Origin: an uncultured Lachnospira sp. | Lineage (GTDB): Bacteria > Bacillota > Clostridia > Lachnospirales > Lachnospiraceae | Reading direction: 5' to 3' | Length of the DNA stretch: 42,056 nt | NCBI GenBank assembly: GCA_947628875.1 | Contig: CANRBP010000002.1 | Coordinates: forward strand, 1-42,056 | Part shown: positions 9,745-12,858 of the stretch, one piece after another | Layout of the letters: each line of letters opens with the position of its first letter | Numbering within the stretch: the first letter of the stretch is position 1 | Notes under the pieces: model-generated | Database searches by the model: none | Told to the model about the DNA's origin: nothing | Seen by the model: the letters and a program-made list of their open reading frames with translations, nothing else | Program-made: the position numbers and the translations under genes

Positions 9745-10935
9745 ATGACAAAAGTAGATATTATATCAGGATTTTTAGGAGCTGGAAAAACAACGCTTAT
9801 CAGCAAGCTGCTCAAAGAGGCGCTTAATGGCGAGCAGGTGGTGCTGATCGAAAATGAATTTGGCGAGATTGGCATTGACGGCGGTTTTTTAAAGGATTCC
9901 GGCGTTGAGATCAGGGAAATGAACTCAGGCTGTATATGCTGTTCTCTTGTCGGGGACTTTGGCACATCTTTGAAAGAAGTTGTGGATAAATATCATCCGG
10001 ACAGGATTATTATTGAACCGTCCGGGGTAGGCAAGCTGTCCGATGTGATTAAGGCGGTAAAGGATCTGCATATTGAGCAGGAGATCTGCCTGAACAGCGC
10101 GTCTACGGTTGCTGATGCCTCCAAGGTAAAGGTTTATATGAAAAATTTTGGCGAATTTTTTAATAACCAGATTGAACACGCAGGAACTATTATTTTGAGC
10201 CGTACACAGAATATAGGGGAGGACAAACTGGCAAAGGCAATAGAGATGATACGCGGACTTAATGAAAAGGCGCATATTATCACAACTCCTTGGGATTCTC
10301 TGGAAGGTGCGCAGATACTCGGCGCGATGGAGAATGTCACAAGCCTTGAGCTGGAAATGCTGGCGGAGCAGGCAGAAAAGGCTCATGCCGAGCATGAAGC
10401 GGAGCACCATCACGATCATGATGGAGACTGCTGCTGCCATCATCATGACCACGACCATGAGCATGATCACGACCACGACCATGAGCATGATCACGACCAC
10501 GAACATGACCATGATCACGACCACGATCATGAACATGACCATGAGCATGAGCATGATCACGGACATGATCACGACCACGATCACGATCATGACCACGGAC
10601 ATGAGCATGATCACCATCACGATCACGACCATGATCACCACCACCATCATGCGGACGAGGTATTTACAAGCTGGGGCGTGGAGACGCCGAACAAGTTTGA
10701 CCGCACAGCGCTTGACGGCATCTTGAAGCAGCTTGCCAATACGCAGGAGTATGGCAGCATTCTCAGGGCAAAGGGAATGCTTGAGGATAATGACGGCAGC
10801 TGGATGTATTTTGACCTGGTGCCGGAGGAATATGAGATACGAGATGGAAAGCCGGATTATACAGGGCGTATTTGCGTGATAGGCGCAGAATTAAAGGAAG
10901 ATGCACTGAAAAAATTATTTCAGCTTGCGGACTGA
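9745..10935 (+). CDS. CobW/COG0523-family GTPase with a long His/Asp metal-binding tract
   Basis: Probable metallochaperone GTPase of the CobW/P47K family, acting in the cytoplasm, most likely on zinc, nickel or cobalt. Walker A is GFLGAGKTT near residue 8, followed by ENEFGEIGIDG, the family metal site GCICC near 60, IIIEPSG as Walker B-like motif, and a C-terminal CobW_C domain (YGSILRAKGML, then WMYFDLVPEEYEI). The usual NKxD guanine motif reads SRTQ (IILSRTQNIGE), a change I recall in some Firmicute members. Between the two domains is a tract of roughly 90 residues with about 45 His alternating with Asp/Glu and a CCC. The ATG at 9745, with GAGG six bases upstream, is preferred over track start 9733. 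Product length is 396. Confidence 0.9.
   Translation: MTKVDIISGFLGAGKTTLISKLLKEALNGEQVVLIENEFGEIGIDGGFLKDSGVEIREMNSGCICCSLVGDFGTSLKEVVDKYHPDRIIIEPSGVGKLSDVIKAVKDLHIEQEICLNSASTVADASKVKVYMKNFGEFFNNQIEHAGTIILSRTQNIGEDKLAKAIEMIRGLNEKAHIITTPWDSLEGAQILGAMENVTSLELEMLAEQAEKAHAEHEAEHHHDHDGDCCCHHHDHDHEHDHDHDHEHDHDHEHDHDHDHDHEHDHEHEHDHGHDHDHDHDHDHGHEHDHHHDHDHDHHHHHADEVFTSWGVETPNKFDRTALDGILKQLANTQEYGSILRAKGMLEDNDGSWMYFDLVPEEYEIRDGKPDYTGRICVIGAELKEDALKKLFQLAD
10384..10650 (+). repeat. Degenerate hexanucleotide repeat encoding the His/Asp tract
   Basis: About 270 bases of CAT/CAC codons alternating with GAC/GAT/GAG, seen as repeated short blocks such as CATGACCACGACCATGAG. It stays in frame and is coding. 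Such repeats can change length by slippage or recombination, which would alter the number of metal ligands. Confidence 0.9.
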
Positions 10936-10949
10936 GAGTGAAAAATAAA

Positions 10950-10971
10950 CTTTCCGTTTTATGCGCGGAAG
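10950..10971 (+). promoter_or_regulatory. Small hairpin and duplicated leader motif before the second GTPase
   Basis: TTCCG pairs with CGGAA around TTTTATGCG. The region shares TTTTATGCGC and GCGCAGAAATGAGG with the leader of the upstream GTPase gene, separated here by 12 extra bases. The last part contains the ribosome-binding site. Confidence 0.45.
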
Positions 10972-10993
10972 ACAGCGCAGAAATGAGGTAAAT

Positions 10994-11941
10994 ATGGCAC
11001 AAGAACAATATCAGATCCCGATATTTTTAATTAATGGCCAACTGGACAGTGGAAAAACCAGGTTTATTTCGGACACGATTGAAATGGGGCAGTTTGCAGA
11101 GGCTAAAAATAAGCTGCTGATAGTGTGCGAGGAGGGGGAGGAAGAGTACGATGAAAAAATGCTTGCGGATAACGGCGTGAGCATGGTTGTACTGGAAAAA
11201 GAAGAATTTACGGAGGAGCGGCTGAAAGCGTTGGATAAGCAGTATGATCCATGGCTGGTCATTGTTGAGTATAATGGCATGTGGGAGCCTTCGCTTATTT
11301 TTGAGACGGCAAAGCCGTATGGCTGGGAGATTTATCAGACGATCACCCTGTTCAACGCCATGACGTTCAGCGTTCAATGGCCGAATATGAAAGCAATTAT
11401 GGCGGAAACGGTAAAATATGTGGATATGGTCATATTTAACCGCTGCAAATCAAGCATGGATCTTGGAAGCTACCGCAGGAGCATGAAAGCATTAAATTCA
11501 GCCGTACAGATCGTATTTGAGGATCAAAAGGGTGATATGATGTCAATTGCCGAGCAGCTGCCATATGATCTCAATGCCGATATTATAGAAGTTGATGACT
11601 GTGATTATGGCATCTGGTATATGGATGTGTCGGAGCGGCCGGAGGTTTATAAGGGAAAGACTGTGCGCTTTAAAGGGCAGGTCATGAAAAACAAATATTT
11701 TAAGGAAAAAAATTTTGTACCGGGGCGGAAAGTTATGACTTGCTGCGCAGATGATACGACATTTATCGGTTATATCAGTTTTTATGATAAAATTTCATCG
11801 CTTGAAAATAAACAGTGGGTGAAGGTAACGGCGAGAATAGAGTACGAATTTCAGATGGCTTACAAGAAAAAAGGGCCGGTGCTTTATGTGAGCGAGGCTG
11901 TTGAGGCGGATCCGCCAAAGGACGAACTGGTTTATTTCTAA
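10994..11941 (+). CDS. Degenerate CobW-like P-loop protein fused to a YcgQ/TIGR03943-like C-terminal domain
   Basis: A 315-residue protein that appears to be a diverged paralogue of the preceding GTPase. The N-terminus has a P-loop NGQLDSGKTRF, then LIVCEEGEEEYDE where CobW has ENEFGE, VIVEYNGMWEP aligning with IIIEPSGVG, and MVIFNRCKSS aligning with IILSRTQ. The CxCC metal site is missing. The C-terminal 110 residues (VRFKGQVMKNKYF, FVPGRKVMTCCADDTTFIGY, QWVKVTARIEYEF, GPVLYVSEAVEADPP) resemble the C-terminal part of YcgQ/TIGR03943 proteins, which partner a YcgR permease in Bacillus. No permease gene is adjacent here. The ATG at 10994 with GAGG upstream is preferred over 10961. Function is unknown; a metal-linked role with its neighbour is an inference. 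Confidence 0.7.
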   Translation: MAQEQYQIPIFLINGQLDSGKTRFISDTIEMGQFAEAKNKLLIVCEEGEEEYDEKMLADNGVSMVVLEKEEFTEERLKALDKQYDPWLVIVEYNGMWEPSLIFETAKPYGWEIYQTITLFNAMTFSVQWPNMKAIMAETVKYVDMVIFNRCKSSMDLGSYRRSMKALNSAVQIVFEDQKGDMMSIAEQLPYDLNADIIEVDDCDYGIWYMDVSERPEVYKGKTVRFKGQVMKNKYFKEKNFVPGRKVMTCCADDTTFIGYISFYDKISSLENKQWVKVTARIEYEFQMAYKKKGPVLYVSEAVEADPPKDELVYF

Positions 11942-11958
11942 GCTGGATGGGACTGCAT

Positions 11959-12858
11959 ATGATACAAGATATTTTTCCTAAACATTTGGATAACCATTAT
12001 GAAAATACAGCGCCGCAGGAAAAAGATACTGTCTTTTTGTTTGAGGGGAACAAGGTTATGGGCAGGCTTGAGGGGGAAAGCGTGCTTTATCCGGATTACC
12101 GGACATTTGCAGAACATGCAGGCTGCAAGATGCAATTTATTTATCTGTTCTCTATCGATGGGCAGCGCTTTTTTCTGGCGATGGCTGGCGGCGAACCGGA
12201 AAAGGGGTCTTTTCTTGGCGAAATGGCCGATTCGGAGGTACATGCGCAAAAAGAGGAACTCCTGCCAGGTTATGTTTTTATAGGAGTAAATGTATTCCGC
12301 AACGCAAAGCCGAGGGAAGTATCGTTTGCAGCCATTACGGCATACCATTTGTATGGCTGGTACAGAGACAACAGGTTTTGCGGAAGGTGTGGGCGGCCAT
12401 TGGCGCATTCGGACAAAGAGAGGATGCTCAGATGCACGTCTTGCGGCAATATGGTTTTTCCTAAAATATGCCCGGCGGTGATCGTTGGCATAACAGACGG
12501 CGACAGGATTTTACTGACCAAGTATGCAGGCAGGTCATATAAAAATTATGCGCTGGTTGCCGGATATACGGAAATAGGCGAGACGCTTGAGCAGACTGTA
12601 GAACGTGAAGTGCTTGAAGAAGTGGGACTGCATGTGAAAAATATACGCTACTATAAGAGCCAGCCGTGGGCGCTCAGCGGTTCGCTGCTTGCCGGATTTT
12701 ACTGCGAGCTGGACGGCAGCAGCACTATCAAGCTGCAGGAGGAGGAATTGTCTGTTGGCGTATGGGTGCATGCTGATGAACTGGATACGCAAGATGACGG
12801 AGTCAGCCTGACGCGAGAGATGATATCGAAATTTGCAAAAGAACACCGCCGCGTGTAG
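11959..12858 (+). CDS. nudC: NAD+ diphosphatase / NADH pyrophosphatase (Nudix)
   Basis: Nudix hydrolase of the NudC type, splitting NAD(H) to NMN(H) and AMP and, in several bacteria, removing NAD caps from RNA. The N-terminal domain is followed by a zinc ribbon (FCGRCGRPL with CTSCGNMVFP), the Nudix box running from GYTEIGE to REVLEEVGL, and the family marker SQPWALSGSLLAGF. Length of about 300 residues fits. Start may be ATG 11947 (track) or 11959; GGATGGG at 11945-11951 favours the second. It starts 17 bases after the YcgQ-like gene, so cotranscription is likely. Confidence 0.92.
   Translation: MIQDIFPKHLDNHYENTAPQEKDTVFLFEGNKVMGRLEGESVLYPDYRTFAEHAGCKMQFIYLFSIDGQRFFLAMAGGEPEKGSFLGEMADSEVHAQKEELLPGYVFIGVNVFRNAKPREVSFAAITAYHLYGWYRDNRFCGRCGRPLAHSDKERMLRCTSCGNMVFPKICPAVIVGITDGDRILLTKYAGRSYKNYALVAGYTEIGETLEQTVEREVLEEVGLHVKNIRYYKSQPWALSGSLLAGFYCELDGSSTIKLQEEELSVGVWVHADELDTQDDGVSLTREMISKFAKEHRRV

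Follow-up and report, generated by a model that had tools for sequence, protein, structure and literature searches.

What a COG0523-type GTPase and a second, diverged P-loop protein might do together is the question raised by two adjacent genes in a 42,056-nucleotide stretch of DNA (the window) from an uncultured Lachnospira sp. (contig CANRBP010000002.1). To our knowledge, the way in which zinc is handed on after its entry into the bacterial cell is largely open, and few partners of COG0523 proteins are known.

Domain structure of the two proteins

The two genes, denoted P1 (positions 9745–10935) and P2 (10994–11941), lie side by side on the forward strand, 58 bp apart, in agreement with the tandem arrangement claimed in a sequence-only reading of the window; they are flanked by an EPSP-synthase-like gene (judged by sequence) and a NUDIX/zinc-ribbon gene. 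P1 (396 residues) is a COG0523/CobW G3E GTPase, with a G domain, a CICC metal motif, a His-rich linker and a CobW_C domain; it matches the profiles PF02492 (cobW; 1.6e-38) and PF07683 (CobW_C; 4.7e-8). COG0523 membership is defined by the CxCC motif (PMC9164220), which is present as CICC in all 142 P1 relatives; the Walker A motif of the family (GxxxxGKT) reads GFLGAGKT in 141 of them. GTP-dependent metal binding, another mark of COG0523, may extend to P1. The description of the first gene as a His-rich GTPase is borne out by its composition, since 46 of the 50 histidines of P1 fall within the 105 residues 201–305, a His/Asp-rich linker (10345–10659) that separates the G domain from CobW_C.

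Several smaller features of the window were also considered. The 14-mer GCGCAGAAATGAGG stands ahead of both P1 and P2 (9725–9738 and 10975–10988) and includes the likely ribosome-binding site. The gene behind the pair (11947–12858) encodes a NudC-like NADH pyrophosphatase with a zinc ribbon (PF09297); a NudC-like gene also follows the pair in four close relatives (L088, L089, L107 and L258; locus numbers are ours), and in L269 a protein of this type is encoded ahead of it. This pyrophosphatase is a possible zinc client of the pair. A 241-residue antisense ORF (9925–10650), together with microRNA-family matches, was rejected as a low-complexity artefact of the His-codon repeat.

P2 (315 residues) is a soluble fusion of a G3E-like G domain (G2; 11018–11509) and a DUF1980_C domain of the YcgQ type, which is OB-like (11549–11938); no transmembrane segment was found in it. 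PF02492 matches residues 9–172 (8.3e-9; 35.7 bits, above its cut-off of 20.7), and PF21537 (DUF1980_C) matches residues 186–314 (3.2e-24). The TIGR03943 model reaches 76.9 bits, under its cut-off of 88.8, and aligns at profile positions 108–220, i.e. over the C-terminal half only; P2 carries DUF1980_C, but is not a full-length TIGR03943/YcgQ protein with an N-terminal membrane domain. The YcgQ-like C-terminus with a Cys pair that had been recognised from the letters is therefore real, and both cysteines (C250 and C251) are invariant in 66 of 66 relatives.

An AlphaFold2 model of P2 has a pLDDT of 88.8 and a pTM of 0.62, the latter value leaving the domain arrangement uncertain. Foldseek comparison of this model with the PDB places HypB on top (2hf8, 2wsm, 4lps), with UreG (5xkt) further down; approximately 100 columns are matched by 2hql, a small single-stranded-DNA-binding protein which we take to be an OB fold. 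A PDB sequence search with P2 gave chance matches only (best E 0.055). The PF02492 score, the HypB fold match and nucleotide motifs conserved in 66/66 relatives together assign P2 to the G3E P-loop class, and its N-terminal domain is thus not unrelated to CobW.

The G domains of P1 and P2 share 25% identity over 174 aligned residues, 9 SD above shuffled sequence, and the alignment recovers the proposed order of motifs (GFLGAGKTT with GQLDSGKTRF, ENEFGE with CEEGEE, IEPSG with VEYNG and ILSRTQ with IFNRCK; in P2 these contain the Walker A GQLDSGKT, EYNG and NRC). The loss of the CxCC site from the second gene is likewise seen, as a gap opposite the CICC of P1, and none of the aligned P2 relatives has such a motif. 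Across the 66 P2 sequences 25 alignment columns are invariant, among them GK[T/S], E46, G48, E92, N94, N149 and R150 in the G domain, and G244, R245, M248, T249, C250, C251 and D254 (GRxxMTCCxxD) in the C-terminal domain. Judged by its motifs, P2 has lost only the metal site and has retained those for nucleotide; as the latter are invariant, P2 should still bind nucleotide. Given that P2 has neither a membrane segment nor a signal, we expect its OB domain to lie in the cytosol in this case.

Conservation of the pair

Among 200 genomes of the same family, 173 have both genes, 18 have neither, nine have P2 only and none has P1 only (Fisher p 2.5e-19, which overstates the independent evidence because the genomes are related); P1 was searched with its first 200 residues at E<=1e-40, giving matches in 173/200. 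All 18 genomes without P2 are hence also without P1, and in several of the P2-only cases P2 lies close to a contig end, the genome is incomplete or the P2 match is weak. P2 itself is matched in 182 of the 200 (91%) and in 67 of 291 class-level genomes, counts in which a few genomes hold partial or split forms.

P1 lies beside P2 on the same strand in 75 of the 78 loci with context, in the order P1-P2 in 71 and P2-P1 in four (at one of these, L063, the genes are ~2.3 kb apart by the gap value of our script); two of the remaining three loci are cut at contig ends and at the third (L084) a P2 paralogue stands alone. Among the named carriers are Lachnospira multipara, Blautia parvula, [Clostridium] fimetarium, Frisingicoccus, Flavonifractor, Roseburia and Butyrivibrio. 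The neighbourhood extends across family and class and is not restricted to this genome. The pair, rather than either single gene, is the unit. The genes flanking it vary from genus to genus, with flanks in common between close relatives only, and no conserved client gene was found beside the pair among the surveyed flanks. The lone P2 paralogue (L084:5162-7124) adjoins a His/Cys-rich fusion of NifX-like (Nitro_FeMo-Co) and FKBP-type domains.

A three-gene membrane form and the descent of P2

In related Clostridia we found a three-gene form (L068-L071, L077-L079 and L251), of which no description was found in the literature searched. It consists of a CICC CobW protein, a protein of ~520 residues in which an N-terminal G domain precedes a permease of the ArsP_1 type (PF03773), and, as third member, a TIGR03943 protein with a transmembrane part and DUF1980_C (132 bits, above the cut-off). 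Both forms occur in a single genome (L251 and L252), and at L247 the genes for permease, YcgQ and CobW are adjacent to one for a small G protein that is encoded separately. Genes for Fur-family regulators lie divergently to or upstream of the three-gene form (L068:8499-8909, for which the best NCBIfam matches are Fur/PerR-like and under cut-off; L069:8576-9070; L071:3112-3570; L077:1816-2265; L079:8287-8760). The permease that the sequence-only reading called absent is indeed missing from this locus, but it exists in sister lineages, where it is joined to a G domain of this type.

In a tree of the G domains (rooted by midpoint and the CobW clan, with moderate internal branch supports), all CxCC CobW proteins separate from P2 and the permease-fused G domains (UFBoot 99). 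The P2 sequences form a single clade (98), which joins 8 of the 11 permease-fused G domains in a group that leaves out the others (99); the direction of descent depends on rooting at the CobW clan. In a tree of the OB domains, P2 falls with nine TIGR03943 proteins, out of 11 from three-gene loci, with all plain YcgQ proteins outside (98); its nearest neighbour is L251 (83), and the monophyly of P2 has a UFBoot of just 68%. Both trees tie the halves of P2 to the three-gene operon. The most likely history is thus that each half descends from one of the two membrane partners of a single operon, P2 having been rebuilt from their soluble parts.

The His-rich linker and the permease are complementary. 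At least 15 His per 50 residues are found in 133 of the 142 P1 proteins, and the nine that lack the linker are precisely the nine beside a permease fusion. Permease loss and linker gain coincide, with two exceptions: L083, a diverged paralogous pair missed by the pattern search, has a His-poor P1, and the P1 of L252, in the genome with both forms, reaches only 11 His.

Zinc-uptake context

Eight pair loci, some of them from related genera, lie in or beside znuACB operons. The order is P1-P2-ZnuA-ZnuC-ZnuB at L201, with genes touching or overlapping, and ZnuA-ZnuC-ZnuB-P1-P2, contiguous, at L261 and L262; at L109, L149, L177, L181 and L206 the znu genes are a few kb downstream of the pair on the same strand. 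His-rich loops, which are known to characterise ABC lipoproteins that bind zinc, are present in the ZnuA of L109, L201 and L206; the ABC-3/ZnuA families include manganese systems too. An ABC-3 permease gene (znuB) lies within ~6 kb of P2 in 3 of 60 family genomes against ~0.22 expected (p 0.0016; coordinates were compared by eye, and P2 positions are missing for a few genomes). The parental form shows the same association: L077 reads ABC ATPase-ABC-3-Fur-CobW-G::permease-TIGR03943, and L241 reads ZnuA-ATPase-ABC-3-Fur-permease-YcgQ. The link of COG0523 to metal delivery, originally drawn from family knowledge, is strengthened by these znuACB and fur neighbourhoods, which point to zinc.

At most loci, that of the window included, no zinc genes are near the pair, and the genome of the window (72% complete) gave no ABC-3 match. 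As regards the zinc-limitation (Zur) regulon, some pair loci do lie inside znuACB operons, but a search for a shared operator found that any exact 6-bp dyad occurs in at most 2 of the 142 P1 leaders; a search for riboswitches or structured leaders (at E up to 5) gave nothing at Rfam gathering score, its matches being mainly spurious miRNA families on the His-codon repeat. Zinc is our best guess for the metal of the pair, with manganese, judged by the families alone, as a less likely candidate. Small DUF1980_C proteins also occur directly beside ABC-3 permeases of the zinc/manganese type (L256:5209-6578 and L257:5296-6797), that of L257 having a lipoprotein-like signal, which suggests that the OB domain also acts alone as part of metal uptake.

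Proposed mechanism and alternatives

The pair is probably a zinc-delivery system that has not been studied before. We consider P1 and P2 to be a two-component soluble zinc-handling system, descended from the three-gene membrane system and acting after ZnuABC uptake, with a probability of about 0.6; this reading draws on the computed domain make-up, fold, pairing and co-occurrence, descent, His-rich/permease complementarity and zinc-operon context. The joint role would be of the kind suggested from the letters, a chaperone and its partner.

G3E proteins are known to function as dimers. In the scheme outlined here we infer that the metal is zinc, that the two proteins dimerise, in which direction the metal is passed and what the Cys pair of the OB domain does. 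Lachnospiraceae and related Clostridia would have dropped the permease and both membrane anchors; the G2 domain and the OB domain, one cytosolic half from each membrane partner, would have been fused to give P2, and CobW would have acquired its His-rich linker. Zinc imported by ZnuABC may then be buffered on the linker of P1, and GTP-loaded P1 would bind it at CICC. P1 and the P-loop protein P2 would form an asymmetric G3E dimer, from which zinc would be released upon GTP hydrolysis, with the OB domain of P2 (CC...D) as putative acceptor or client adaptor. G3E proteins have been described as nucleotide-gated metallochaperones (PMC9164220). Tentatively, the two may be taken further as an asymmetric hetero-GTPase of the G3E class that works as a zinc transferase and is comparable in build to the SRP/receptor pair: P1, with CICC and its His reservoir, would carry the metal, and P2, formed from cytosolic remnants of a lost metal permease complex, would accept it.

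Zinc storage is a rather doubtful alternative, in which P1 would be mainly a cytosolic zinc sink whose loading is regulated by P2, with no dedicated client. The 46 His of the linker, its absence where the permease is present and the co-location with ZnuABC all fit such a role, but a simple sink has no need of two conserved P-loop proteins, nor of the invariance of GK, E92, N94, N149 and R150 in P2 and of CICC in P1. We likewise hold it to be improbable that the pair matures one specific metalloenzyme widespread among Lachnospiraceae (of zinc or another d-block metal), as HypA/HypB or UreE/UreG do, with P2 docking the client. The presence of HypB and UreG among the fold matches, the 91% of sampled family genomes with a P2 match and the client specificity of the G3E relatives Nha3, UreG and HypB (PMC9164220) are consistent with this; against it, no client gene is conserved next to the pair, the flanks vary widely and zinc uptake is the only recurrent context recognised. 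A metal other than zinc (cobalt, nickel or manganese) is unlikely: ABC-3 transporters do include manganese systems, as family knowledge has it, and COG0523 comprises cobalt, iron and zinc chaperones (PMC9164220), but the His-rich loops of the adjoining ZnuA proteins are, again by family knowledge, typical of zinc binders, and Fur-family genes adjoin the parental form. A reading of P2 as a decayed copy of P1, devoid of joint function, could be argued from the tandem placement, the 25% identity and the lost CxCC, but was rejected as very improbable given that the G domain of P2 clusters with permease-fused G domains rather than with P1, that 25 columns are invariant across 66 sequences and that the presence of P2 is linked to that of P1.

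Relation to known systems

The pair differs from each of the known systems closest to it. The COG0523/CobW zinc chaperones (ZagA/YciC, ZigA, YjiA and ZNG1) resemble P1 in having a G domain, CxCC, a His-rich segment and CobW_C, and in some genomes a zinc-uptake context, but they do not have a constant second gene with a diverged G domain and an OB domain; the TIGR02475 (CobW) and ZigA models, moreover, score far under their cut-offs here. YcgR/YcgQ, also known as ScfA/ScfB, comprise an 8-TM putative permease and a TIGR03943 protein, and ScfB is a determinant of fitness in group A Streptococcus (PMC5584981). P2 shares with YcgQ/ScfB the C-terminal domain with its CC motif, but has no permease and no transmembrane anchor, and has a G domain fused in front. 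HypB (the best fold match) and UreG (a lower one) are G3E nickel chaperones; unlike them, P2 has an OB domain and is accompanied by a CxCC protein. The three-gene form has every soluble domain of the window pair, including the CICC CobW, but is membrane-bound through its permease and anchor, and its CobW is without the His-rich linker.

In the literature searched we found no description of the pair and no mention of TIGR03943, with COG3689 and DUF1980 each named in a single paper; in the COG0523 survey (PMC2770081), COG3689, COG0701 and YcgQ are all unmentioned. The C-terminal domain of YcgQ/ScfB, uncharacterised so far, is now tied to zinc genes. The pair, found in approximately nine-tenths of the genera that were sampled from a dominant family of the gut, gives a COG0523 GTPase a fixed partner and clearly exemplifies the rebuilding of a membrane complex in soluble form. 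If P1 and P2 do form an asymmetric hetero-GTPase, it would be a soluble zinc-delivery machine of transporter origin.
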